Under the pieces are notes generated by a model. That model was given only the letters and a program-made list of their open reading frames with translations. It ran no database searches and was not told the DNA's origin. A stretch of DNA of 64,000 bases. Source: Candidatus Woesearchaeota archaeon (GTDB lineage Archaea; Nanobdellota; Nanobdellia; Woesearchaeales; UBA11576). Shown here piece by piece: positions 49,801 to 63,758 of the stretch; position 1 is the stretch's first letter; every line of letters begins with the position of its first letter. The translations under genes were made by a program, and so were the position numbers. Location: assembly GCA_018675335.1 (NCBI GenBank), contig JABGYH010000007.1, forward strand, positions 372,232-436,231. Direction: 5' to 3'.

Positions 49801-50409
49801 ATGATTATTAAAAAAATTTTATCCCAATTTGTCATTAATCCATCTAAAAAATGGACTATAAGAGAATTATCATTAAAAACTACAATTAATTATCGGCAAG
49901 TATACGAAGCTATTCACAAACTAATTTTAGACGGTGTAATAACTTATGAAAAAGTTGGCGCGTCAAAGCAATGTGCTATTGATATTTCAAAAAATGAAAA
50001 AATATTTTCAGAAGTAGAAAATTTTCGAACAAACCAAATAATTTCTAAAAATTCATCAATAAAATTAATAAGCAAGTTAATTAAAGAATTAAATAGTTGT
50101 TTTTTCATATGCATTTTATTTGGTTCTTATGCAAATCATACTCAAACAAAAAAAAGTGATCTTGATCTGTTGTTCATAATACCTGATTTAGAAAATGATG
50201 AAAATTTCAAAAAACAAATCAAACAAAAATTAAGCGTTCTTCCCGACAAATTAGATATTAATGTAGTGCAAGAAAATTGGTATTTAGATATGATATCAAA
50301 ACCAAATAAATACAATTTAGCAAATGAAATAATAAAAAATCACGTTATTTTATTTGGTTCAGAACAATATTATTTATTATTTCAAAAAAATATTTTAAAA
50401 GGTAATTAA
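49801..50409 (+). CDS. MNT-type nucleotidyltransferase with an N-terminal winged helix
   Basis: The 202-residue protein combines a winged helix (about 1-65: NPSKKWTIRELSLKTTINYR) with a minimal nucleotidyltransferase domain. The motif LFGSYANHTQTKKSDLDLLF gives the GS and two catalytic Asp residues, and a third likely Asp lies in DKLDINVV. MNT proteins are the antitoxin partners of HEPN ribonucleases and can add AMP to the HEPN protein. The HEPN gene follows at once. Confidence 0.85.
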   Translation: MIIKKILSQFVINPSKKWTIRELSLKTTINYRQVYEAIHKLILDGVITYEKVGASKQCAIDISKNEKIFSEVENFRTNQIISKNSSIKLISKLIKELNSCFFICILFGSYANHTQTKKSDLDLLFIIPDLENDENFKKQIKQKLSVLPDKLDINVVQENWYLDMISKPNKYNLANEIIKNHVILFGSEQYYLLFQKNILKGN

Positions 50410-50410
50410 A

Positions 50411-50977
50411 ATAGTAAACGAAAAACAAATACAAATATCTACAAGAATAATTAAAGAATTAATTAAAGAAAATAGAATAATTAAACCTGATGAACAATAT
50501 TCCACCTTTTTCATTAACAAATCAAAAATTTCTTTAAGAGTTGCAGCAGAGTTATTAGATTCATGTTCTGACTTATTTGAAGCAGAGGAATGGGTAATAA
50601 CAACAGCATATTATTCAATGTTTTATTCTGCAACTGCACTATTAGCATATTATAATCACAAAATTAACACAACAATTGGGATACATACATTAACATTTCA
50701 TGCATTGGTTTATTATTTTTTAATAGAAGACAAAAAATTTGAAAAACATTTTTTAGATTCATACAGCCAAGCAAAAGATGAAGCAGAAGAGTTAATGAAT
50801 ATTTCCGAATCACAACAAAATGCAGAAAAACTAGTAGAATCATATAAATTCGAAAGTGAAAAACGAAAAAAGTTCACATATGAGATGGGTCAGATCGCAA
50901 AACATACTAAAGCAGAGACATCTTTAAAAAGAGCGCAAGAATTCTTTAAACTAGTACAGGAGTTAATACTAAAATGA
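50411..50977 (+). CDS. HEPN-domain protein (toxin-type partner of MNT), probable non-AUG start
   Basis: The HEPN fold is clear: ISLRVAAELLDSCSDLF, VITTAYYSMFYSATALLAYY, and a C-terminal helix (SLKRAQEFFKLVQEL). An ATG at 50618 would cut off the first helix pair, yet the frame stays open upstream and has no ATG, GTG or TTG. AAAGGT at 50398-50403 sits eight bases before an ATA codon at 50411, which I take as the start (188 residues). The classic R-x4-6-H motif is not obvious; HTLTFH is the nearest feature. It overlaps rnp3 by four bases. Confidence 0.7.
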   Translation: MVNEKQIQISTRIIKELIKENRIIKPDEQYSTFFINKSKISLRVAAELLDSCSDLFEAEEWVITTAYYSMFYSATALLAYYNHKINTTIGIHTLTFHALVYYFLIEDKKFEKHFLDSYSQAKDEAEELMNISESQQNAEKLVESYKFESEKRKKFTYEMGQIAKHTKAETSLKRAQEFFKLVQELILK

Positions 50978-51571: not shown

Positions 51572-51967
51572 ATGGCTGGCACGAAACAAAAATTTAGTAC
51601 AATTAGTTCTACTGTACTTATTCTAGTTGGATTTGCAGTTTTATTTACTGTTCTAATGATTGTTATGTTTGGAGAAAATCCTGAATTTGTTTCTGGAATA
51701 GAATTATCAAAAGCAGAACACAGTTACAATTTTGATAATGAAACCAATAAAACTATTGATGTGCTAGAATTAAAAGTTAGTAACACAAATGATTTTTTAG
51801 TAAATTGTGATTTAATTCTAAAAATTACTGGCGGAGAAGAAGACCTAACTGATAGTCAAGGATTTTTAATGTATCCTTGGACCCTTGCAAACAAATCATT
51901 TAGTTTTGAAATGCCAAATGGCAATAGTAGTATTAATATTTATTCTGAATGTGTGCGACTAGGATGA
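51572..51967 (+). CDS. Small one-pass membrane protein
   Basis: The 131-residue protein has one N-terminal membrane helix (VLILVGFAVLFTVLMIVMFG) and a small external beta domain with several N-glycosylation-type sequons and two cysteines. I see no family. It starts seven bases after rnp3, and its stop overlaps the next start (ATGA), so it belongs to the same operon. Confidence 0.75.
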   Translation: MAGTKQKFSTISSTVLILVGFAVLFTVLMIVMFGENPEFVSGIELSKAEHSYNFDNETNKTIDVLELKVSNTNDFLVNCDLILKITGGEEDLTDSQGFLMYPWTLANKSFSFEMPNGNSSINIYSECVRLG

Positions 51968-52845
51968 CTGAGTTAGATTATTTAATTTTAGTTAAAGTTA
52001 GATCATTATTGGGAGATTTTAAAATATTATTTGAGCAGTTTAAAGAAACAAATAATAGTTTAATTTATGTATCTTCAAATTCTCAAAATAAATATTTGTT
52101 GAAATTATTTAAGAAAAATGATTTCTCGTTAGAAAATGTTAAAAAATTAAAGAAAATCTATTTAGATTTGGGTGTTTTGTTTGAAGACTCAATATTAAAT
52201 TTTTTTTATGATGAAAAACTGGTTGAATTATATTATTTTATAGAATGCAACCCATTTGAATCAAATGTTAATTTATTGGAAACTGTCGCTAATATATTTA
52301 ATAAAATCTATTTGAACTCGTCACCAAGTACTAATCATAAACTAATTAATTTTTCAATTAATGAAATTAATAATTCTTTTTTTATTGAATATGAAAAAAA
52401 ATTAATCCAGGAATTATTTGAGGAGTTTGTAAAAAATTGTGGTTCGTTGAAACAATCTTTTTGTCATAATGATTTAAAACCACCTAATTTTTTATTTAGG
52501 GAGGATGGCGTAGTGTCAATTATTGATTTTCAAACAGCAAATTATAATTATGTGATATATGATATTTCAATATTTTTAAGTCATTTATTATATTATTATA
52601 AATTAAAAAAAATATCTTTCGAAAAAATAAATTTTTTTTTAAATATTGTATTTAAAAATATACCTTTGATTGAATTTAAAATGTTATATAATTTAGTAAT
52701 TCTTATTAATTTGGATAGAATAAAATTTTTTAGAAATAAAATGGATGGTGCTAAAAATTTGCAAGAACGAAAAAATTATGTTTATCAGTTAAAAATGGTA
52801 AAAGAAATCATGTTTGATAAAAAAGTTTCATCGTTATTCAATTAA
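51964..52845 (+). CDS. Aminoglycoside phosphotransferase/choline-kinase-fold protein
   Basis: The ATG at 51964 forms the usual four-base overlap with the preceding stop and gives 293 residues; another ATG lies five codons upstream. The catalytic loop FCHNDLKPPNFLF (His-Asn-Asp, with the magnesium-binding Asn) and the following IIDFQTANYN motif are those of the APH family. The N-terminal lobe holds a plausible ATP-binding Lys in YLLKLFKK. The substrate is unknown and could be a small hydroxyl compound such as a sugar or an amino alcohol. Resistance is not implied. Confidence 0.78.
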   Translation: MTELDYLILVKVRSLLGDFKILFEQFKETNNSLIYVSSNSQNKYLLKLFKKNDFSLENVKKLKKIYLDLGVLFEDSILNFFYDEKLVELYYFIECNPFESNVNLLETVANIFNKIYLNSSPSTNHKLINFSINEINNSFFIEYEKKLIQELFEEFVKNCGSLKQSFCHNDLKPPNFLFREDGVVSIIDFQTANYNYVIYDISIFLSHLLYYYKLKKISFEKINFFLNIVFKNIPLIEFKMLYNLVILINLDRIKFFRNKMDGAKNLQERKNYVYQLKMVKEIMFDKKVSSLFN

Positions 52846-52912: not shown

Positions 52913-54178
52913 ATGGCACAACATAAAACACTAATAGCTTACATTAAAAAACATCTTGAGAAAGGAGTGGATATTACTAAGATTAAAAAAGCACTTTCTA
53001 GAGCAGGACACCCCATAAACAGAATAGAGCTTGCAGTCGAGGGCGTTTTCGAGTCCAATCCCCATCTAAGAAAAAAGAAAAAATTTGATGCGAATAAATA
53101 CTTTAAAAAATTTCAATCAAGACAAGTGATAGGCATAGGAATTGGTGTTTTAGCCGTTGTATTAATTCTATTTTTAGTAATGTTTGGACTAAAACAGTTT
53201 GGAGAGTATTCTGAGTATAGAGAAGATGTAGTTGAGTTTAACGAAAATCAAACATTTGAACTTATGAGTGACCTTGATTTACTTAATTTCGCACAACAAG
53301 AAGGAGACATGAAAGCTTGTTCTTTTATTGAGAGTCATAATTATTACTATGCCTGCGTTGAGAAATGGTGGGAGAAGGATGATTGTAAATTTTTATTGTT
53401 GACGGATCAACCAACTGATGAGTGTAGATATAATTATGCAATAAAAGAAAAAAATATTTTATTATGTGTTTATATTCAGGATTTGGATTTAAGAACTAAA
53501 TGTTATTCATTTGAAACTGATTTTTTACGAGATAAATTAGACTTAGCGTTAGCAGTTAATAATATTAGTTTATGTAATCAAGATAAAATTTGTGAATATG
53601 AATATTATTTAACAAAAGAGCGATGCGATTTAATGTTAGATTCTGGCGATTCTAACAATTGTTTTATTGAATTAGCTAAAATTAAAGGAGATCAATCTTT
53701 TTGTGATAAATTAAATAATTCAAATAATTTAGATATTGATTTGAGTTGTGATTTTCTATTTTATTCTGAAGAACAAATCATTAATTCATGTCAATATTTA
53801 GCAGATAGAGGGAGAGGTTTAGAAGGAACTGAAGAAGAATTTGTTGAAAATATTGCTTTTTCAGAATGTTTAATGAATTCAGCAATATCTCGAAATATGC
53901 CTAACCTTTGTTTTAAAACTTCTTTTAATGAAGCATGTTTAACTGCAGTAACCAAATTTGCTGAGCATGGCGATAGTTGTGGTTTAATTCAAGATACTGC
54001 GTGGAATTCAGTTTGTACTGCAATTAAAACTCAAAATTCTGAACTTTGTAATATTGCAACCGAAACAAATTTAAATACACTTTGTAATATTCATACTGAC
54101 ATGACTAAGAATGATTGTGAGGCTCTTCCAATAGGGGCACTAAAACAATTTTGTGAACGATTATTAAAATTAAGGTGA
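52913..54178 (+). CDS. Membrane protein with external cysteine repeats, related in plan to 27633-29030
   Basis: The 421-residue protein has an N-terminal cytoplasmic helical unit (LIAYIKKHLEKGVDITKIKK) similar to the units in the protein at 27633-29030. One membrane helix follows (about 70-95). The exterior from about 120 on is built of short helical repeats, each with two cysteines, such as MKACSFIESHNYYYACV and NNCFIELAKIKGDQSFC. GAGGG lies upstream of the ATG. The product is probably a disulfide-rich surface protein. Four bases separate its stop from the start of the His-Xaa-Ser precursor, so the two genes are likely co-transcribed. Confidence 0.75.
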   Translation: MAQHKTLIAYIKKHLEKGVDITKIKKALSRAGHPINRIELAVEGVFESNPHLRKKKKFDANKYFKKFQSRQVIGIGIGVLAVVLILFLVMFGLKQFGEYSEYREDVVEFNENQTFELMSDLDLLNFAQQEGDMKACSFIESHNYYYACVEKWWEKDDCKFLLLTDQPTDECRYNYAIKEKNILLCVYIQDLDLRTKCYSFETDFLRDKLDLALAVNNISLCNQDKICEYEYYLTKERCDLMLDSGDSNNCFIELAKIKGDQSFCDKLNNSNNLDIDLSCDFLFYSEEQIINSCQYLADRGRGLEGTEEEFVENIAFSECLMNSAISRNMPNLCFKTSFNEACLTAVTKFAEHGDSCGLIQDTAWNSVCTAIKTQNSELCNIATETNLNTLCNIHTDMTKNDCEALPIGALKQFCERLLKLR

Positions 54179-54182
54179 TTAT

Positions 54183-54761
54183 TTGAAAATACCCAAAATT
54201 AAAAAAGAAGTGAAAGCATTTTTGTTATCGGATTCGGGAAATGTAACTAAAAATAAAGTGTTAAAAATAGGGTTATTTTCTTCGTTATTAGGTATTGGGG
54301 GCATGAGTAAAGATGCATTTGCTTGTCATTGTAGTATAAATGCTGAATCTTTAACGGATGCGCCTAAAGATGATGATTGGTCTTTGATAAAACCTTATGC
54401 TGAACAAAGTTGTGGGACAAATCCTCCGTCTGCAGATCATAGGCCGTTATTCGAATCCCCATTTACTGATCATGGGAGTGATGGTCATTCTAGTGCTGAT
54501 GATGATAATTGGACTTGTCACGCGAGTACTCATGCAAGCCATCAAGATGGGTGGGAAGGAAATGATGAAGGCCAATTTGATCCCGCTATGGCTGATGCAG
54601 CATATCATAAAAATCATCTGCTAGTTGGTGAAGATTCGGATATAGGTGAATTGCAAATTACTCATCAACATGAAATAACTGACTGTGTTCAAGAATTACA
54701 TGCTAGTTATGATGAACATTGTAGTGATGGCGATTGTAATGATAATCATTGTAATGGTTAA
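54183..54761 (+). CDS. hxsA: HxsA-like His-Xaa-Ser precursor peptide (RiPP-type)
   Basis: The start is TTG behind GGTGAT, giving 192 residues. Residues 1-47 form a leader: a basic helix with VKAFLLSDSGNVTKNK, then the hydrophobic KIGLFSSLLGIGG and a signal-peptidase-like AFA before Cys48. The rest is Asp/His/Cys/Ser-rich and holds seven His-Xaa-Ser motifs, at residues 49, 97, 102, 113, 117, 173 and 179. Nine cysteines are also present. His-Xaa-Ser repeats define the HxsA substrates of the Hxs radical SAM system, and HxsB-, HxsC- and HxsD-like genes lie within 6 kb. The product is probably a modified secreted peptide; no chemistry is proven. Confidence 0.75.
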   Translation: MKIPKIKKEVKAFLLSDSGNVTKNKVLKIGLFSSLLGIGGMSKDAFACHCSINAESLTDAPKDDDWSLIKPYAEQSCGTNPPSADHRPLFESPFTDHGSDGHSSADDDNWTCHASTHASHQDGWEGNDEGQFDPAMADAAYHKNHLLVGEDSDIGELQITHQHEITDCVQELHASYDEHCSDGDCNDNHCNG

Positions 54762-54812
54762 TAAGTAGATTAAACAAAGTTTTTTTAATTAGTTATTTTA
54801 TTAATTTATTTA

Positions 54813-55885
54813 ATGGGTAATTTAATGAATTTGGAAACTATTAAAAAAATTTGGAAATATAAATTAACTAAAAATTTTATTAATGGTGATGAAAATTTTA
54901 ATTTATATATAGATAGTCCTTTTTGTATTGCACCTATTTGCAAATATTGCATATATAAACCAACAATTATTTCTGATAAATCAATTTTAAAATTAAAAAA
55001 TAAATATTATTCGGAAATATTGTTAAATAATATTAAAAGTTTTTCTGATATTATTTCTATAAGATTGCCCGATGCAATATATTTTGGAGGGGAACCAGTT
55101 CTTTGATGACTGTTAAACAAATGCAAACAATTTTTGATGAGTTAAATAAATATTTTAATTTTAAGTTAGTTAAACACAAACATTTTGAATTTAATCCGTT
55201 AAGTGCAACAGATGAAAAAATAGATTTTTTGTTAAAAAATAATTTTACTCATTTTACTTTTGGTGTTCAATCTTTAAATTCTGATGTTTTGAATTATAAT
55301 GATCGCATTAATATTAATTTAAAACAATTAAAAAATATTTGTATTAAATTAGAAAAACACTGAGTTAAATATAATTTAGATTTACTTGCATTTATTTTTA
55401 AGGATAATTTTAAACAAGATTTAAATATTTTAAAAGCGGATTTGGCTCTTCTTAAACAAGAAATAAATCCTATGCGAATTACTATTTTTCCTAATTATAA
55501 TAAGTTCAGAAATAATTATGCTATAACTTCAGAGTATGTTAAAATAATTAAACAGTTTCGAAAATTTATTTTAGCGTTTGCAGATCAAAATAGTTATGTT
55601 AATATCCATCAATGTACAACTATGCTGGAAAATAAAGAAATTGCTAAAAGTTTACTTAAAAATCCTATATTGGTTAGATCGGATCTGGCTAATGAACCTT
55701 GGGAGCAATATACTAGTACTTCCCCCTCTAATTCAAAATCCGAAAATAAAAGTGTTTTAGCATTTGGAGGTTGGAATAATAGGAAACCGTATTCTTATAT
55801 AACTGATAAATTCGAATACCGTACTATTAATTCAATTAAGGGTACTGAGTATGAATTAATTTGTGCAGATATAAACTATTATTAA
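54813..55885 (+). pseudogene. Broken HemN/HemW-like radical SAM gene
   Basis: The first piece (54813-55106) carries a radical SAM cysteine motif, PFCIAPICKYC, with four rather than three residues between the first two cysteines. Its reading frame runs out in GGEPVL. One extra G in the G-run near 55088-55091 would restore the expected FGGGTSSL and continue into 55103-55363, whose HFTFGVQSLN is a HemN-type motif. An in-frame TGA at 55361-55363 interrupts that piece, and the same frame then runs on to 55885. So one frameshift and one stop inactivate the gene. The intact homologue would be a HemW-like radical SAM protein. Confidence 0.75.
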
Positions 55886-56793
55886 TCGGTTATTGGTTTA
55901 AATTCAGAATTTCCGAATTTTTCAGGATATTCTTTCCACACACCTTCGCAAATATTATTATGTTTACATAAATTACATTGTTTAAATTTGGCTTTAATTT
56001 TTTTTCTAACTATTTCCCAATTTTTGGTATTTCCATCTAATTGTTTTAATTCTGAATTTTTTTTATTAACAAATCTTAATTCCGAAATGAGTTCTTCAAA
56101 TCCTTTCATAAAACAAAAGGGAAATGTTTCAAAATTAACTTTAATATTATTATCTTTGCAAAATTGCGCAGTTTCATGAACATATAATTCTATTTCAGAA
56201 TATTTTGGTACTACAAGATCAAAATTTTTTCTTGCATTACCTTCTGCGTGAGGAAATGCGAAATTAATATTATTAACATTTAAATTTTTAAATAATTGTG
56301 CAATATTTTTTAAATCTTTAAAATTTATTTTAGAAATTACAACTTTTCCTGTAATAGTTTTATCAATTTTTTTTAAATTTTTTATTCCTTCAATTGTTTG
56401 TTTAAATGAATTATTAACTCTGACAATTTTATCATGAATTTGCGCAGTTGATCCATGAATTGCAATTACAAAATGAATATTATATTTTTTAAAATTTTGA
56501 CAAAAATCTTGATAAAAGAACATTCTGCCATTTGTTTGAATTCCAATGCGAAAACCCATATTTGTTGCAGCAGTTAATAAATCAAATAAATCTTTTCTTA
56601 AAGTTGGCTCCCCCCCTGTAAAAACAACTTGATCACACCCATTTTTTTTAGATTCAATGAGTTCATTAATATATTCTTGAGTGCTTCTATCTTGATTTCC
56701 TCTGAAGATTAATGCTTTTTGTCTTTGATCTGCAATAACGCAATGGATGCAATTATTATTGCACGTATATCCTAATTTAATATCTGTTTTCAT
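55882..56793 (-). CDS. hxsC: HxsC-like radical SAM maturase
   Basis: The 303-residue protein has the radical SAM cluster motif CNNNCIHC (Cys 11, 15 and 18), a TGGEPTLRKDL motif, an IAIHGSTAQIHD strand, and a C-terminal auxiliary cysteine set (CNLCKHNNIC) near 280. HxsC enzymes are the shorter radical SAM partner in Hxs systems, about this length. The gene is three bases downstream of the HxsB-like gene and ends the operon, and it overlaps the 3' end of the broken radical SAM gene by a few bases. The HxsC assignment rests on context as well as sequence; another short radical SAM enzyme is possible. Confidence 0.65.
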   Translation of the reverse strand: MKTDIKLGYTCNNNCIHCVIADQRQKALIFRGNQDRSTQEYINELIESKKNGCDQVVFTGGEPTLRKDLFDLLTAATNMGFRIGIQTNGRMFFYQDFCQNFKKYNIHFVIAIHGSTAQIHDKIVRVNNSFKQTIEGIKNLKKIDKTITGKVVISKINFKDLKNIAQLFKNLNVNNINFAFPHAEGNARKNFDLVVPKYSEIELYVHETAQFCKDNNIKVNFETFPFCFMKGFEELISELRFVNKKNSELKQLDGNTKNWEIVRKKIKAKFKQCNLCKHNNICEGVWKEYPEKFGNSEFKPITD

Positions 56794-56796
56794 TTT

Positions 56797-58203
56797 TTAT
56801 TTATATTTAAGCCAGTTTAATAAAATTTTTCTAGATTCGGGTTCGAATAATAATTTATTAAAAACATAATCGAACTGAAACATAAATAATTTACATTTTG
56901 AATTTGATGAGAGTTTCGGAATCATATTTCCTTCTTCTGCATAGTTCATAACTGGACAAAGCCCGCAATATGGTTTGTAAACACAATTATCGCATAAAAA
57001 TGAACTGTTAATGGATAATGAGATTAGTTGTTGAGTTTTTTTTTGATTTATTATCTCTTTATAATTATTATCAAAAACATTTCCTAGTTTAAATAAATCA
57101 AAATTTCTTCCTTCATCACAGGAAAAAATGTTTCCTTTGTGATCATAAGCAATTTGACCGATAGCTAAACCGCAAGGGCTTCTAAAATCTAAAAAAGAAG
57201 GATCTGTTTTTGTAAGAATTTTTTTTAAAATTAAAACAACATATCTTTCTCTGACAAAAATTCCTCTTTTGTTGAGGGATATTATGTATTCTACACTTTT
57301 TTCCCAAAAATCAATAAATTCCTCAATTGAATATCCGTCATTATTCCATTTTTCTTGTGCGAATCCTAGTTTATTCAGATATTTTATTTGAATATCTTTA
57401 AACCCTTTGTCAACGTATTCATCGATGATTTCTTTATGTTTTGATAGGCTGTTTCTTGTTGTAACCATTAAAGCTGCAATGCGTTTGCCTTTAGATCTTA
57501 CATCTTTAATTTTGTTTGTTACTGCAGTATAAGTTCCACTTTTGTCCTCATATATTCTGTTGTGATCGTGGATTTCTTGAGGGCCATCAAGACTAGTACA
57601 CATATCTATATTTTGTTCTTGAATCCAGTCTAATTGGTCCTCGGTTAAACAAGTTAAATTTGTTACTAATGCAAATCTTATTTTTTTATTGAATTTTAGG
57701 TTCATTTTTTTTGCTTCAGTAACAATAAATTGAAATGTCCCCCAATTAAGTAATGGTTCACCGCCTTGAAACTCAATAGTTATTGTATTTGAAGGAGTTT
57801 GAAAAATGAATTCAAGAGTTTTTTTGGCAGTTTTTAAATCCATATCAAATTCTTTTTTGTCGCAATCTTTTGCAGCAGAGTGACAATAAATACATTTATG
57901 GTTGCATCTTAGTGTCGTAACTATAATATGCAGTGAAGCACCCTTAAATAAAAATTCAAATCGTTTTGCATAATCAATTAAAATTTGATTAATATTATTT
58001 TTAGTAATTATTATTCCCTTTTTAGTTAAATCTTCGAATAGTTTTGGATCTAATTCTTTACGCATTAATTTATCAAATTTTTTTTTACCTAAAACTATCC
58101 AAGATCCCGATTCATTAACTATTAAAAATCTATCTTTAATTTTTTTGTACCTGAAGGGATTATATTCAAAATCGGTTATTATTTCTTTTTTTTTATTTTC
58201 CAT
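56797..58203 (-). CDS. hxsB: HxsB-like radical SAM/SPASM maturase
   Basis: The 468-residue protein fits the HxsB family closely: an N-terminal peptide-binding-like region with YNPFRYKKIKDRFLIVNESG, then LRCNHKCIYC (Cys 100, 104, 107), EFQGGEPLLNW, TSLDGPQEIHDHN, and a C-terminal SPASM set (CDNCVYKPYCGLCPV, about 412-426). SPASM enzymes carry extra iron-sulfur clusters and usually cross-link or oxidise ribosomal peptides. The length matches HxsB. It lies within a minus-strand operon between two other radical SAM genes. Confidence 0.82.
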   Translation of the reverse strand: MENKKKEIITDFEYNPFRYKKIKDRFLIVNESGSWIVLGKKKFDKLMRKELDPKLFEDLTKKGIIITKNNINQILIDYAKRFEFLFKGASLHIIVTTLRCNHKCIYCHSAAKDCDKKEFDMDLKTAKKTLEFIFQTPSNTITIEFQGGEPLLNWGTFQFIVTEAKKMNLKFNKKIRFALVTNLTCLTEDQLDWIQEQNIDMCTSLDGPQEIHDHNRIYEDKSGTYTAVTNKIKDVRSKGKRIAALMVTTRNSLSKHKEIIDEYVDKGFKDIQIKYLNKLGFAQEKWNNDGYSIEEFIDFWEKSVEYIISLNKRGIFVRERYVVLILKKILTKTDPSFLDFRSPCGLAIGQIAYDHKGNIFSCDEGRNFDLFKLGNVFDNNYKEIINQKKTQQLISLSINSSFLCDNCVYKPYCGLCPVMNYAEEGNMIPKLSSNSKCKLFMFQFDYVFNKLLFEPESRKILLNWLKYK

Positions 58204-58224
58204 TTTGTTGTTATGTTTATAGTA

Positions 58225-59142
58225 TTAACTGGGTAATTGGTTATGAATATGTGCTGCACAAGGTTTACATGATCCTCTTTTCTTCAAAGTACATGATGTG
58301 CATTTTTTCATCATTATATGATCTAATTTTTTAATTATGTTATTTCTTATTTCTTGAATGTCATTTAAACTATTTTTTTTTAAATTGCCAATTTTTTGAT
58401 CTAAAAAAGGACATATGTGTACATCTAAATTTGGGAATACAAACAATCCATTATTGCATTTTTCAAAAATAAAATTATTTTTTAGTAATTTATTTTTTTG
58501 TGCGATTGTAAACATGCAAATTGGCGAAAAACAATGTTGTTTTATTTGAATTTGTTGTTTTATACATTCTTCAATTATGACTTTAATTTTGTATTTGTTT
58601 TTATCATTTATTTCTGATATGTATTCATTATTTTTTTTTTGTGTTGGAAGTGAAATGACTGGCATGACTATGTTTGGTTTGATATTTTGAATATGTTTAA
58701 TTATTTCTTGTTCATCTGTTTGATCGTGAATGACTGCAGTAAGTGCAATTTCTGCATTTTTTTCTTTTAATAATTTAATATTGTTAAATATTATATTAAA
58801 TTCTTTTTCGTTATGAGCACAATGGAAATTGAATTTAAAATTTTTCATGTTTGAGTATTTTTCAAAAAGCCTTTGATGAAATAAACCGTTAGTTGTAATT
58901 AGTATTTCAAAATCTTCTTTAAAATTGAGTATGTAATCAATAATTTGTTTTAATTCAGGATGGTTTGTGGGTTCACCCCCCAGAAGATTAATTCTATTAA
59001 ATTTATTTGCAATAAAGTTATCAAAATAAAATTTAAACTCATTGAAATTTATGTGCTGATTGTTTTTAAGAACATGTTTTGCTAAACAATAATTGCAGCC
59101 TCTATTGCATTCTTTGCTGATAAATATTTGATTTAAAGACAT
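58225..59142 (-). CDS. Third radical SAM enzyme of the Hxs cluster
   Basis: The 305-residue protein has the cluster motif ECNRGCNYC (Cys 12, 16 and 19), LLGGEPTNHPELKQI and ITTNG, plus a C-terminal cysteine set (CTSCTLKKRGSCKPC) that could hold an auxiliary cluster. It is shorter than HxsB and not closely like it or HxsC. Its start shares one base with the stop of the small gene before it (TAATG). It may carry out a second modification or be an alternative HxsC. I cannot assign a subfamily. Confidence 0.8.
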   Translation of the reverse strand: MSLNQIFISKECNRGCNYCLAKHVLKNNQHINFNEFKFYFDNFIANKFNRINLLGGEPTNHPELKQIIDYILNFKEDFEILITTNGLFHQRLFEKYSNMKNFKFNFHCAHNEKEFNIIFNNIKLLKEKNAEIALTAVIHDQTDEQEIIKHIQNIKPNIVMPVISLPTQKKNNEYISEINDKNKYKIKVIIEECIKQQIQIKQHCFSPICMFTIAQKNKLLKNNFIFEKCNNGLFVFPNLDVHICPFLDQKIGNLKKNSLNDIQEIRNNIIKKLDHIMMKKCTSCTLKKRGSCKPCAAHIHNQLPS

Positions 59143-59336
59143 TATTTCATCAAACCTAGTGCGTAATTTGAAAATTCTAATTCTAGATTTGAAATCGGTT
59201 CGTGAGATTTAAGATTAAGCTTAAAATAGTTATTATTTTCTGTAAATTTCACTTCGCAGATTTTTTCAAATGCTATAATTGTAGAGTTAATTGCAGTTTT
59301 TGAATAAAATTTTTTGTTTAATTTCAGTTGAATCAT
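59142..59336 (-). CDS. Small HxsD-like companion protein
   Basis: The 64-residue product (from ATG at 59336; an alternative ATG at 59369 overlaps the previous gene) reads IQLKLNKKFYSKTAINSTII, then ends in LELEFSNYALGLMK. It shares with HxsD-type proteins the KKFYSK...AI start and the short final helix with an F/E-x-x-NYAL motif. Such small proteins accompany peptide-modifying radical SAM enzymes and may bind the precursor, like PqqD-type recognition elements. The homology is suggestive, not firm. Confidence 0.5.
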   Translation of the reverse strand: MIQLKLNKKFYSKTAINSTIIAFEKICEVKFTENNNYFKLNLKSHEPISNLELEFSNYALGLMK

Positions 59337-59346
59337 TTTAGTTTGT

Positions 59347-59760
59347 TTATTCTTTGTAATCTTCTGCATCCCAAGGCTTCATAATTTTTTCAGTATCGCT
59401 AACAGTATTTTTTGGCTGTTTGATGGTGGTTTGGGGTTCTGCATTATTTGTGAGTAAAACTCTTTGCAAGATTGTTTCTCTAATTTGTTTGTTTCTTTCA
59501 TTTTGAATTTTATAAACTGAATAATTAAGCAGCTCTTCATTAAAATCTTGAACTAATAAATTTAAATCTTGATTGGGTTTTTTTTTTCGAATTTCAATCA
59601 AGATTTCTTGAGTTGGATCTCCATCTAAAATAATGAAAGCCTTATCAATCATAATATATGCTGCGCTATATACTATATCTATGGGATAAATTTTTGGATT
59701 CAAAGAAAATGTTGCATTATCTGATTCTATAGTTATATTTCCTAATTTGTTAGATATCAT
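59347..59760 (-). CDS. hxsD: HxsD-like protein
   Basis: The 137-residue protein matches the HxsD layout: LNPKIYPIDIVYSAAYIMID in the first third, and the ELLNYSVYKI segment (about 76-85) that corresponds to the 'LLNDYxLRE' signature that I recall for this family. The last 30 residues form a Pro/Thr/Asp tail. HxsD co-occurs with HxsB and HxsC; its role is not established, and a precursor-binding or chaperone role is likely. It lies 54 bases after the prepilin peptidase gene. Confidence 0.7.
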   Translation of the reverse strand: MISNKLGNITIESDNATFSLNPKIYPIDIVYSAAYIMIDKAFIILDGDPTQEILIEIRKKKPNQDLNLLVQDFNEELLNYSVYKIQNERNKQIRETILQRVLLTNNAEPQTTIKQPKNTVSDTEKIMKPWDAEDYKE

Positions 59761-59814
59761 TATAATTCTCCTTTTTATTTAGTTTATATTATTATTCTTA
59801 TTATTTATGTATTT

Positions 59815-60879
59815 TTATGCGAATATTTGAATTAATGCAGTAATTATGTTACCTTTAAAAATAATTGTTAATAAACAACCTGCGAATATGAATGGTGCGA
59901 AAGGTATTGTTTCTTGTATATTTAAATGACTGAAATGTAATTTTCTAGAATTGTGTGCTGTTTGAATAAATTTTATGTCTTTTTTTGTTAAGCCAGTTGT
60001 TCGTCTTTCTATTGCAATAGTATCCTTGTTTAATTCTAAAAATTTTTGGTTTTTTTCAAAAATGGCAAAACCCTTTTTTGTTATGAGTTCTAAGGGGATC
60101 ATTCCTTCTTTAAGATTTGATATTTTAATTTTATATGAATAAAAATCAGTCGAATTAATAATTAACACTTTAATAAGTAAAAAACCCGTTAAAAAACTTA
60201 AGAAATTAAACCAAAATTCAAATCTGGTAAAATGTTCTGGACTAATAAATAATCTGATGATTGCAATGAAAATTAATACATAAATTGTTTGCTCTTCAAA
60301 TATTTTATTGAATAAATATGAAATTAAAAAAAGACCCATCATTATATATAAATAATTTGAATTTATTCCTACATAATTGAGGATTGATTTGGAAATCCAA
60401 GTTAGGCTGAATACCGTTAAAATTATTCTGAGAACATATCTATGATTAGTAAATCGTTTTAAAATTTTTCGTTTATGAGCAAAATTGGTTTTTAAGATTA
60501 GTTTAACAGTTAAATAAATAAATAATGGGATGAATGCGTTTATGATTAATTCTAAAATTGGCAAATCTATGCTGATAAATTTGTAATGTGTTAAAGGGAT
60601 TAGTGAAAAAAATGCAAGATATAATTTGGCATCTCCTGCACCCCAAAAAGAAAAATGCCAGCCTATGAACCCTAATAGTGTGGCACCCACAATATTAATT
60701 AGAAAAAAAATTATATAATCTAATTGAATTAGGTTTAGAATAAATAATGTTGAATTAATTAAAATGCTACAAATTAATGCAATTATGACATATTTATTTT
60801 TAATTTTTCTTTTAGTTATATCTTGATAACTAGTAACAAGTCCTAAAATTATTATTATAGGTAAAAAATAAATAATCAT
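59815..60879 (-). CDS. Type IV prepilin peptidase (A24 family) with C-terminal extension
   Basis: The 354-residue protein is mostly membrane helices. Two catalytic Asp motifs of A24 peptidases are present: SYQDITKRKIKN (Asp near residue 21) and FWGAGDAKLY (Asp near residue 82). The core is about 200 residues; the rest adds another cluster of helices and a soluble segment not typical of short archaeal FlaK or PibD. The enzyme cuts short basic leaders from pilin-like proteins at the membrane. It starts nine bases after the fused radical SAM gene and so lies inside the Hxs operon, which is unusual. Confidence 0.85.
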   Translation of the reverse strand: MIIYFLPIIIILGLVTSYQDITKRKIKNKYVIIALICSILINSTLFILNLIQLDYIIFFLINIVGATLLGFIGWHFSFWGAGDAKLYLAFFSLIPLTHYKFISIDLPILELIINAFIPLFIYLTVKLILKTNFAHKRKILKRFTNHRYVLRIILTVFSLTWISKSILNYVGINSNYLYIMMGLFLISYLFNKIFEEQTIYVLIFIAIIRLFISPEHFTRFEFWFNFLSFLTGFLLIKVLIINSTDFYSYKIKISNLKEGMIPLELITKKGFAIFEKNQKFLELNKDTIAIERRTTGLTKKDIKFIQTAHNSRKLHFSHLNIQETIPFAPFIFAGCLLTIIFKGNIITALIQIFA

Positions 60880-60888
60880 GTGAATCTC

Positions 60889-62874
60889 CTAACTGTGCTC
60901 TTTTATTTCTGAAATTATATTTTGTAGTTTATTTTGGATTTCATTTATTTGATTTGAATTGGGTTGATTTGTAAGATTTTCTATAATTAAAAACTTTGGA
61001 GTTCCAACACCCATAAATTCAAATATTTTTTGTAAATAATTTTTTTGTAAATCAAATTCATTAAATGGGGGTTTAGAATAAATTCCCCCTCTTGTTAAAA
61101 TACATATTATTGTTTTATTTTCTAATAATCCTTTTATTGTGGGTTTTAATTGAAATGTTTTATTTTCAATTAAGATTAAATCAAAAAATGCTTTGAGAAT
61201 TGAAGGTATTGAAAAAGACCACATTGGGGTGGATAATATTAACATATCGCAGTTAACTAGCTCTTTAATGTAATAATCTGATAAATAGTTTAAATTTGTT
61301 TTTTTATTATTTGAATTTGTTAAATGTTTTATGTAGTCTTCATTTATGAACTCTATTTTTTCAGAACATAAATTAATTATTTTTGTGTTAGATTTTTTTT
61401 TACACGAAATTTGATTTATTAATTCTTTTGCTATATTTTTTGAGTTTGAATTTTTTTTCGGACTAGTATTAATCCATAATATGTTATTAGCGATATTATT
61501 TTGGTTTTTTGTTAATAATTTAGTTTCAATTTTAATTAATGAATTAATTGAATCTTCTGGGCAATCTAAACATAGTTTAATGAATTTAGAACTTTTTTTG
61601 ATTTCTTCTAAAAAAAGTTGTTTGTTGTGGTCAGTTAATAATGATAAATTATTTTTTGCTTGATCTAAATTTTTGGATGATAAAAATTTAAAAAGATTTT
61701 GGTATTCTTGCACGTTTTCATCAGATATTAATGGCCATAGTTGTCCTTGTAGTTCAGAATAACTTTTGTGTTTGATTAAACTATTATAATTAAAATAGTC
61801 CTGAGTTCCTGGAAATAAAAAAACAGGAAATGGGCAGGGAATTCCTCCAAAATAAATTATGCTCAGGAATGTCCTAAATATTGATTTAATTTCATCATCT
61901 GGGTGGCCAATAATGAATGTGCATTCACAGTCTTTGATGTGAAATCCTTCTTGTTTAAGAAGATGTGTCATTTTTATTGATGATATGATTGTATACGGTT
62001 TGTTATATTTAGTGATTGTTTTAGAACTTGCGGTTTCAAAAGGTAAACTGGCAGTTGTAACTCCTGCAGTTATCATTTTTTTAACAAGTGACTCATGAAT
62101 AAGATTTGGTTGAAAACCCATTTCAAATTTAAGTTGAGATGTCATTCCTGATTTAATATACATATCAAGAAATTTTTCTAAATGATCTGGAAATAAAAGT
62201 ACGTTTGAATCCCAATTCCAAAAAGCTTTGGGGTTATATTTGACATAAAATTCTTTCATATAATTAATTACAAATTCAATTGGGATTTTTTTTAGTTTAT
62301 CCATTGCAGAGATGCAAAATGAACATTTATTTGGGCAACCAACTTCAAGTTGAAATAATCCATAACTCCATTTGTTTTGGATTTGAAAATCTGGTTTGAA
62401 AAGTTCGACTCCCTTTATTCTTTTTTTAAAACAAATAACTCCTAACTTAGATTCTAGGTTGGGAGTAACTCTTGCCATGGTTCCGCCCAATTTTATTATA
62501 GATCTAGGAAAAATGAATTTGCAGGTTTGAATCATGGAGTTAACAACGTCAAAATCACAAGAAAATGAACAACTAATCCAAATTTCATCAGGTATTTTTT
62601 TAATATTTTTTAGTTCATATTCTAGAAATTTTTTATTTTTTCCTAAAATGTGTGTTTGTATTTTTTGTTTTCCATTTAACCCTAGGGGCTTAATTTTCCA
62701 TAAGTGTTTATCATTTGATCGCATATTAATAAAAAAAACGTTATTTTGTTTATTTTTTAAAAATGATATTAACTGTAAAATGCCTATTGCTATTTGGTTT
62801 GGGCAAAGATAGTTTTCAATACAAGTATAAGGCGTATTCAAAATAACAATATTTTTATTTGAAGGAATAATCAT
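60889..62874 (-). CDS. Radical SAM protein (B12-binding-like N terminus) fused to a flavodoxin-like reductase
   Basis: The 661-residue protein has an N-terminal Rossmann-like region (about 1-165), as in B12-dependent radical SAM enzymes but without a visible DxHxxG motif. The radical SAM domain follows, with CPNKCSFC (Cys 180, 184 and 187) and FIIGHPDDEI. The last 190 residues (about 468-655) look like an NADPH-quinone-reductase/flavodoxin fold: LWINTSPKKNSNSKNIAKEL, LSTPMWSFSIPSILKAFFDL and LTRGGIY. Flavodoxins supply electrons to radical SAM clusters, so the fusion may carry its own donor. It heads the operon. Confidence 0.75.
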   Translation of the reverse strand: MIIPSNKNIVILNTPYTCIENYLCPNQIAIGILQLISFLKNKQNNVFFINMRSNDKHLWKIKPLGLNGKQKIQTHILGKNKKFLEYELKNIKKIPDEIWISCSFSCDFDVVNSMIQTCKFIFPRSIIKLGGTMARVTPNLESKLGVICFKKRIKGVELFKPDFQIQNKWSYGLFQLEVGCPNKCSFCISAMDKLKKIPIEFVINYMKEFYVKYNPKAFWNWDSNVLLFPDHLEKFLDMYIKSGMTSQLKFEMGFQPNLIHESLVKKMITAGVTTASLPFETASSKTITKYNKPYTIISSIKMTHLLKQEGFHIKDCECTFIIGHPDDEIKSIFRTFLSIIYFGGIPCPFPVFLFPGTQDYFNYNSLIKHKSYSELQGQLWPLISDENVQEYQNLFKFLSSKNLDQAKNNLSLLTDHNKQLFLEEIKKSSKFIKLCLDCPEDSINSLIKIETKLLTKNQNNIANNILWINTSPKKNSNSKNIAKELINQISCKKKSNTKIINLCSEKIEFINEDYIKHLTNSNNKKTNLNYLSDYYIKELVNCDMLILSTPMWSFSIPSILKAFFDLILIENKTFQLKPTIKGLLENKTIICILTRGGIYSKPPFNEFDLQKNYLQKIFEFMGVGTPKFLIIENLTNQPNSNQINEIQNKLQNIISEIKEHS

Positions 62875-62933
62875 CTGTTTTGTAGGAATGTTGGAATTTA
62901 TAAAACTTTCATTTGTATTTAATAAGGTTTATT
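62875..62933. promoter_or_regulatory. 59-bp divergent promoter between the operon and the prenyltransferase
   Basis: One short region must start the minus-strand radical SAM operon and the plus-strand prenyltransferase. A TATA-like TTTATAAAAC lies at 62897-62906 and may serve the prenyltransferase; AAGG lies just before its ATG. The compact divergence suggests shared control. Confidence 0.55.
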
Positions 62934-63758
62934 ATGGCTGAAGAAATAAAATTTAAAAATGTACTCGAAAAGTTTAATTTTCATTTGGATATGAATTCAA
63001 TTAAAAAAGATGATTTGTTAAATTTATTTGAAGATTTTTTAGTTCAAAATAAATTAAATAGTTTAGAATGTTCTATAAAATATGCTCATGATAATGTATT
63101 TTCAAAAAGATTTAATATTTGGTTTAAAGGAAAAAATCATTTTCAATCTATTTCTAATACTATAAAATTTTTTAACCAAGTTGAAAATAAATTTAATTTA
63201 AAATTAAATTATGACCTGCTTAAAAATTTTTTTGGAAAAGAATTCGATCTTGATTTGTTTGATCAGGTGATTATGGGAGTTGATTTTAGAGAAGACTTGA
63301 GTAAATCTCGTCTTAAATTATGGGTTTTGACTTTAAATTATGGTGTGATGAAAAAATTAATTCAGTTTTATGGGATAAATTATAATCTTGCGTCTTTACC
63401 TATATCCAATCAAGTATTATTGGGATTTGATTTTGGATTTGACGGATCATTAAATAATAAAATTTATTTTACCTATTTTCAAGAATTATTAAATCAAGAT
63501 CATACTAAACAAGTTTTTAAAAATTTATTTTCTAAAGAATTTATTGAGGTGGTTAATTATTGTGATCTAATTCACATTTCTTTGAGTGGGGGAAATGGTA
63601 AATATATTTTTCATTTTGCACCTTGCCAAATTAATTTTTTTAAAGAAAAATTTAGTTCTAGTGTCGGTTATGATTGGAATTTTCCATTAAAAGTTTTTTC
63701 TACTTCCTCGACTGAATTTAATTCAATGCAAATTAGAAATTATAATATTTATTATTAA
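62934..63758 (+). CDS. LynF/TruF/PatF-like peptide prenyltransferase
   Basis: The ATG at 62934 (after AAGG) gives 274 residues; a TTG earlier is unlikely. The protein follows the pattern of the cyanobactin prenyltransferase family: NTIKFFNQVENKFNLKLNYD, then FGKEFDLDLFDQVIMGVDFR, the LGFDFGFDGSLNNKIYF segment, and a C-terminal end of IRNYNIYY. Family members have an ABBA-type fold and transfer dimethylallyl groups to Ser, Thr or Tyr of peptides, though some, such as PatF, are inactive. Finding it divergent from an Hxs operon suggests the modified peptide is also prenylated. Confidence 0.75.
   Translation: MAEEIKFKNVLEKFNFHLDMNSIKKDDLLNLFEDFLVQNKLNSLECSIKYAHDNVFSKRFNIWFKGKNHFQSISNTIKFFNQVENKFNLKLNYDLLKNFFGKEFDLDLFDQVIMGVDFREDLSKSRLKLWVLTLNYGVMKKLIQFYGINYNLASLPISNQVLLGFDFGFDGSLNNKIYFTYFQELLNQDHTKQVFKNLFSKEFIEVVNYCDLIHISLSGGNGKYIFHFAPCQINFFKEKFSSSVGYDWNFPLKVFSTSSTEFNSMQIRNYNIYY

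Follow-up and report, generated by a model that had tools for sequence, protein, structure and literature searches.

Does the archaeal locus described here encode a genuine His-Xaa-Ser (Hxs) system, which of its many enzymes belong to that system and what might they make? The locus lies on contig 7 (JABGYH010000007.1) of the 1.7 Mb, 97% complete genome of a Candidatus Woesearchaeota archaeon (GCA_018675335.1), within the 64,000-nucleotide stretch that was analysed (contig positions 372,232 to 436,231; hereafter the window). The Hxs cassette was reportedly first described by Haft and Basu, and its components are represented by the NCBIfam models HxsA (TIGR03979), HxsB (TIGR03978), HxsC (TIGR03977), HxsD (TIGR03976), HxsA3 (NF038309), HxsA4 (NF038313), HxsC4 (NF038332) and HxsD_rel (NF038315). 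An earlier note, made from the letters of the DNA alone, had proposed that a small His-Xaa-Ser protein encoded here is modified by radical S-adenosylmethionine (SAM) enzymes, possibly prenylated and exported. All of the genes that it named were recovered where it had placed them, and we consider it probable that this is a genuine archaeal locus of the ribosomally synthesized and post-translationally modified peptide (RiPP) type that makes a modified, exported His-Xaa-Ser product. Established at the level of sequence are the gene content, the order of the cassette across DPANN archaea, the conservation of the precursor leader, the co-occurrence of HxsB and precursor, the linkage of an A24 peptidase and a fusion of prenyltransferase and radical SAM domains.

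An Hxs cassette in DPANN archaea

HxsB of the window scores well above the TIGR03978 cut-off (462 bits, cut-off 370). HxsD_rel is clearly above its own cut-off (64.5 bits against NF038315, cut-off 41) and HxsD marginally so (50.2 bits against TIGR03976, cut-off 50). The HxsC-like radical SAM protein falls below the cut-offs of both HxsC4 (147 bits, cut-off 500) and HxsC (105 bits, cut-off 268), yet its similarity to these families marks it as a clear HxsC homologue; the earlier assignment of HxsB holds, that of HxsD holds narrowly and that of HxsC as a relationship below the family thresholds. Seven minus-strand genes, from 62874 to 55882, are closely packed, either overlapping or no more than 54 bp apart, in agreement with the single operon proposed before, and the precursor gene is on the opposite strand. 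The CxxxCxxC motif is retained in all four intact radical SAM proteins of the locus.

The cassette is widespread in DPANN archaea. HxsB above the TIGR03978 cut-off was found in 26 of 98 genomes of the same order, and a scan of GTDB genomes recovered HxsB relatives in Woesearchaeota, Nanoarchaeota, Aenigmatarchaeota, Diapherotrites, Undinarchaeota and Nanohaloarchaea, as well as in bacteria such as Elusimicrobiota, Myxococcota and Patescibacteria. The statement of the earlier note that Hxs is described mainly from bacteria needs correction on these counts. The usual archaeal gene order is A24–HxsD–HxsD_rel–HxsB–HxsA, and this arrangement recurs when the neighbourhoods in other DPANN genomes are searched, as the note had suggested. 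A quick HxsB tree, from a sample that was chosen by similarity to archaeal queries and under-samples bacterial diversity, places 58 archaeal sequences in a group with only two bacterial ones (both from one Halothermothrix bin), apart from 38 bacterial sequences. Given this grouping, the archaeal system does not appear to have been acquired recently. Two HxsB copies of Halothermothrix sp. bin B5_bin.9 (Bacillota; locus L076) fall inside the archaeal clade near HxsB of the window, which could reflect either transfer between domains or contamination of the bin.

HxsD and HxsD_rel have in common a predicted β-α-β-β-α core in structure models with predicted local distance difference test (pLDDT) scores of 89.0 and 87.7, respectively, and a heterodimer of the two is a reasonable guess. 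Neither protein has a PDB match at E ≤ 0.001, and assignment to a known fold was rejected on this ground; Rpb11/Rpo11 is the top PDB match of both, but it is weak (E values of 0.011 and 0.039) and serves as a lead only. The identification of HxsD with a described RiPP recognition element was likewise set aside, since a recent survey makes no mention of HxsD.

The precursor and its leader

The seven His-Xaa-Ser motifs counted in the earlier note are located at residues 49 (HCS), 97 (HGS), 102 (HSS), 113 (HAS), 117 (HAS), 173 (HAS) and 179 (HCS) of the precursor, which also contains 8 Cys and 14 His in total. Shuffled sequences of the same composition contain on average 1.38 such motifs and none of 20,000 reaches seven. 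The founding HxsA model TIGR03979 has no match anywhere in the genome, so membership of the founding family was rejected; the nearest model is HxsA3, which matches the N-terminal part only and below cut-off (30.4 bits, cut-off 65, E = 2.5e-7). Relatives of the precursor with His-Xaa-Ser motifs lie beside maturases elsewhere. They match the HxsA4 or HxsA3 models, some above cut-off and including some that pass HxsA4, which indicates that this class of precursor is already known to the NCBI curators. Many relatives have a core made up of long HGSHGSH runs, mostly without Cys in the repeat, and the motifs of the window precursor are sparser than most.

The leaders of 29 precursors align closely (consensus PKIKKK..FL..EEG-KISK). 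Phe13 and Gly19 are invariant, and Pro4, Lys8, Glu17 (Asp in the window), Lys23 and Gly30 are nearly so; this conservation supports the TTG start of the window precursor. A profile of the leader finds exactly one matching protein in this genome. Among genomes of the same order, it matches 22 of the 26 that are HxsB-positive and three of the 72 that are HxsB-negative (Fisher p = 7e-15), where several HxsB-positive genomes contributed to the profile and the negatives and many of the positives contributed nothing. Gly19 precedes a hydrophobic stretch, possibly as a class III signal peptide of atypical spacing, and marks a candidate A24 peptidase site between nucleotides 54239 and 54240. An AFA sequence directly before Cys48 is a candidate signal peptidase site (between 54323 and 54324), and a similar AxA-like site often closes the hydrophobic stretch in relatives. 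The RiPP-like logic and the export signal proposed earlier are supported. Export by the Tat pathway, suggested by a Tat-like T/S-K-x-x-x-L-K stretch in the leader, was rejected because the genome has no TatC match.

Directly upstream, the gene of a 421-residue Cys-rich membrane protein stops 4 bp ahead of the precursor. Homologues of it are present at other Hxs or HxsA loci (L032, L035, L038, L043 and L152), and it is probably a partner of the precursor.

A linked prepilin-type peptidase

The earlier note had counted the prepilin peptidase among unusual extra enzymes; it is instead a regular member of archaeal Hxs cassettes. Of 41 archaeal loci, 29 have an A24 gene no more than 5 kb away from HxsB, against 6 of 39 bacterial loci, as divided by record titles of which at least one (L097) is probably mislabelled. 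The record in question (JAFCCF010000004.1) is labelled Candidatus Aminicenantes bacterium and probably corresponds to a contig of G052, a genome of the same order as the window, whose HxsB (L044) falls among the archaeal ones. Only two A24 genes are present in the whole genome studied here, one of them in this operon, which makes a chance linkage to HxsB implausible; the second A24 protein matches the profile of the cassette enzymes only distantly (44 bits). In another genome (G023), the A24 gene adjoins the precursor gene on a contig that shows no HxsB.

The window enzyme matches PF01478 above cut-off (31.3 bits, cut-off 26.5) and has both catalytic Asp motifs (SYQDITKRKIKN and GAGDAK), with Asp20 and Asp83 (GAGDAK) as candidate catalytic residues. 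Archaeal prepilin peptidases cut after Gly, Ala or Ser ahead of a hydrophobic domain (PMC4371748). The prepilin-type A24 class is absent from a review of RiPP leader proteases (PMC10885120), and the literature searched contained nothing on Hxs in archaea or on Hxs with A24 peptidases.

Prenyltransferase and other additional enzymes

The prenyltransferase-like gene named in the earlier note encodes a protein above the cut-off of PF19156 (95.6 bits, cut-off 28.8) and below that of TIGR04445 (LynF/TruF/PatF; 109.5 bits, cut-off 140, E = 2e-31). Its solved relatives by sequence are LimF, PagF and PirF. In G001, the only genome of the same genus found, the corresponding copy is just above the TIGR04445 cut-off (140.6 bits, cut-off 140) and is part of a 1,005-residue fusion with a UPF0004/radical SAM region and a second radical SAM domain, which stands directly before A24–HxsD–HxsD_rel–HxsB. 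This fusion argues that the linkage of the prenyltransferase to Hxs is not accidental and bears out the relevance that had been attributed to the gene. Since LimF attaches a geranyl group to C2 of His (PMC11002830), a natural candidate acceptor is the His of His-Xaa-Ser, with Ser, Tyr and Trp as alternatives.

Pfam confirmed the third radical SAM protein, the A24 peptidase and the fusion of radical SAM with Flavodoxin_2, all of which had been recognized before. The best relative found for the third radical SAM protein is encoded at the Hxs locus of G058 (L034). The flavodoxin fusion is absent from all other fetched Hxs loci. Other archaeal Hxs loci encode further combinations: radical SAM with an APH-type kinase (L032:12646-14763 and L038:1700-3202), radical SAM with glycosyltransferase and methyltransferase (L042:4495-8208) and A24 with a PMT-type glycosyltransferase (L023:11195-13858). 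At L023 and L031, five or six radical SAM genes stand in an array. The APH/choline-kinase-like protein of the window has no phmmer match among the fetched loci.

Proposed pathway and its alternatives

In the proposed pathway, the conserved leader of the precursor would be recognized in the cytoplasm by HxsB and HxsC together with HxsD and HxsD_rel as a pair of small proteins. The His-Xaa-Ser motifs would then be modified by HxsB and HxsC through radical chemistry, most likely with a bond between His and the Ser two positions further along. The LimF-type prenyltransferase and the additional radical SAM enzymes may tailor this precursor as well, as the gene fusion suggests. We infer two-step processing: the A24 peptidase of the cassette would cut off the leader behind the invariant Gly, and export by Sec, with a second cut by signal peptidase at the AxA site, would bring the modified product with its Cys and His residues to the exterior of the cell. 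The observations that weigh against this account concern the chemistry, the leader cleavage, the prenyltransferase and the state of one neighbouring gene, and each is given below together with the alternative on which it bears.

Radical SAM enzymes are known to join residues i and i+2, among others by His C2–Cβ and Phe–Ser links (PMC11002830), and by analogy a His-to-Ser link of this spacing is our leading guess. The next-best family of HxsB is the thioether-forming PapB (163 bits) and not the cyclophane-forming families, against which its scores are low (GrrM/OscB, 77.8 of 310 bits; YhhB, 69.3 of 445; AmcB, 61.3 of 425), and the literature searched contained no Hxs product or reaction, only passing mentions of Hxs genes. 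It is conceivable, if somewhat unlikely, that HxsB and HxsC form no His–Ser link and either oxidize Ser, as anaerobic sulfatase maturases do, or form Cys thioethers, yielding a metal-binding or reactive peptide. Ser oxidation is the main rival to the cross-link. The solved relatives of HxsB, a SCIFF maturase-type enzyme (5wgg) and an anaerobic sulfatase-maturating enzyme (4k36/4k37), would suit this alternative, as would the PapB score and the Cys and His content of the window precursor. The pure HGSHGSH cores of many relatives, mostly free of Cys, argue the other way, and Ser oxidation alone does not explain why His and Ser keep a strict i,i+2 distance.

The assignment of the leader cut to the A24 peptidase has to contend with the approximately ten residues, several of them Lys, between the leader Gly and the hydrophobic stretch, which is unlike typical pilins, and with the retention of the same Gly in those bacterial cassettes that have no A24 gene linked to them. 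The product could itself be a pilin-like surface protein, modified by the radical SAM enzymes and prepared by the A24 peptidase for a filament or surface coat. A prepilin-type peptidase together with a pilin-like Gly ahead of a hydrophobic stretch, members of the secretion ATPase family in the genome, giant secreted proteins flanking the cassette in several genomes and the A24–glycosyltransferase fusion of one relative are consistent with such a product. We nevertheless regard it as unlikely: the AxA-like sites past the hydrophobic stretch suggest that this stretch is removed, unlike in pilins, and the cassettes lack an assembly ATPase or platform gene.

Just downstream of the window (L001:11074-18710), two giant secreted proteins of 1,123 and 1,422 residues with MopE-type metal-binding motifs are encoded, and homologues lie close to the Hxs cassette in related genomes (L066, L043, L053, L039, L050 and L036). 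They were rejected as A24 substrates; the one on the window side begins MLFDIKKG followed by a hydrophobic stretch, but its homologues begin differently. They are possibly surface partners, or merely reflect conserved gene order.

With respect to the prenyltransferase, homologues in G013 and G058 stand 13–27 kb from HxsB amid other genes, which indicates that the family is not confined to Hxs. In addition, the genome has no match to a trans-prenyl synthase or HMG-CoA reductase, an absence that is not certain at 97% completeness; it has one cis-prenyltransferase. Short prenyl donors would accordingly have to be scavenged. The genome thus retains a peptide prenyltransferase yet is apparently unable to make short prenyl diphosphates. 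On another reading, only the Hxs core (precursor, HxsB, HxsC, HxsD, HxsD_rel and A24) is real as a unit, and the prenyltransferase, radical SAM–flavodoxin fusion and third radical SAM protein form a separate neighbouring pathway. The homologues far from HxsB among unrelated genes, the location of the prenyltransferase on the other strand and the restriction of the flavodoxin fusion to this one of the fetched loci point in that direction. Set against this, the third radical SAM and radical SAM–flavodoxin genes lie within the same tight operon, and in G001 the prenyltransferase and two radical SAM domains are joined in one protein immediately ahead of the cassette. We judge a separate pathway improbable.

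The last point is that the neighbouring HemN-type radical SAM gene is broken. The first two of its fragments have an intact counterpart, a radical SAM protein, at another Hxs locus (L073:12155-14119), and the breakage could be either decay or an assembly error. That the whole locus is decaying in this genome and yields no functional product, to which the sparseness of the His-Xaa-Ser motifs relative to most relatives might also be ascribed, is very unlikely; the remaining genes all have open reading frames, the cluster motif is retained in the four intact radical SAM proteins and the frameshift itself may come from the assembly.

Gene table and neighbouring genes

The features of the locus are listed in Table 1, including the broken HemN-type gene and the gene of the Cys-rich membrane protein, both missed in the earlier note. 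Rfam and tRNA scans of the window gave no match. Upstream of the locus, at 49801-50977 (+), a nucleotidyltransferase-domain gene (PF01909) is followed by an open reading frame of 119 residues without a Pfam match, an MNT-HEPN-like pair; a similar pair is also found on the Hxs contig of G005 (L038:3239-4322).

Table 1. Features of the Hxs locus, in window coordinates (TM, transmembrane segment).
Feature	Position	Strand	Evidence and remarks
APH/choline-kinase-like phosphotransferase, possible accessory	51949..52845	+	Pfam PF01636 43.2 bits, PF01633 36.7 bits
421-residue membrane protein, one N-terminal TM, 22 Cys	52913..54178	+	Homologues at other Hxs/HxsA loci
HxsA-type precursor, 192 residues, seven His-Xaa-Ser motifs, 8 Cys	54183..54761	+	
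Broken HemN-type radical SAM gene	54813..55885	+	Frameshift near 55103, in-frame TGA at 55361
HxsC-like radical SAM, CNNNCIHC motif	55882..56793	-	NF038332 and TIGR03977, both below cut-off
HxsB radical SAM/SPASM maturase	56797..58203	-	TIGR03978 above cut-off; tree
Third radical SAM, SPASM-like C terminus	58225..59142	-	Pfam
HxsD-like protein (HxsD_rel)	59142..59369	-	NF038315
HxsD	59347..59760	-	TIGR03976
A24 prepilin-type aspartic peptidase	59815..60879	-	PF01478 31.3 bits, PF06819 20.2 bits
Radical SAM (weak B12-binding-like N terminus) + Flavodoxin_2 fusion	60889..62874	-	PF04055 36 bits, PF02525 113.7 bits, PF02310 E 0.33
LynF/TruF/PatF-type peptide prenyltransferase	62913..63758	+	TIGR04445, PF19156; alternative ATG start 62934; divergent from operon

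Relation to known systems and significance

With the known Hxs cassette the window shares HxsB, HxsD and HxsD_rel above cut-offs, alongside an HxsC-like radical SAM protein and a His-Xaa-Ser precursor. It differs in that the precursor and HxsC are below cut-off, in the archaeal gene order with its linked A24 peptidase and in the addition of two further intact radical SAM genes (one a flavodoxin fusion) and a prenyltransferase. The prenyltransferase is related over its whole length to the LynF/TruF/PatF enzymes of cyanobactin pathways (including LimF, PagF and PirF), but it is archaeal, below the TIGR04445 cut-off and linked to radical SAM enzymes. The A24 enzyme resembles the archaeal prepilin peptidases PibD, FlaK and EppA in its PF01478 match and both candidate Asp motifs, and the precursor has a Gly before a hydrophobic stretch; unlike those peptidases, it is encoded in a RiPP-type operon. 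Triceptides, in which radical SAM enzymes form three-residue cyclophanes, have in common with the window an i,i+2 motif with an aromatic residue first, and His C2–Cβ and Phe–Ser links are known among them (PMC11002830), but HxsB of the window is by score outside the cyclophane-forming families.

Judged by its genes, the locus is a genuine variant, in archaea, of the Hxs systems already known, in which the A24 peptidase is a regular member and the tailoring enzymes are specific to the genome. More tentatively, and with rather less than even confidence, a distinct class of surface-exported RiPPs may exist in DPANN archaea, with radically cross-linked repeats of His-Xaa-Ser, an A24 enzyme as dedicated leader protease, tailoring that varies between genomes (extra radical SAM enzymes, a LimF-type prenyltransferase, glycosyltransferases, methyltransferases and kinases) and prenyl donors derived in part from the host.

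A candidate leader protease, the A24 peptidase, is now tied to the Hxs cassette, and the compact gene set gives clear predictions for mass spectrometry. The locus points to the prenylation of peptides in archaea. It also points to a surface molecule that carries chemical modifications, in small and probably host-dependent archaea whose cell contacts are poorly understood.

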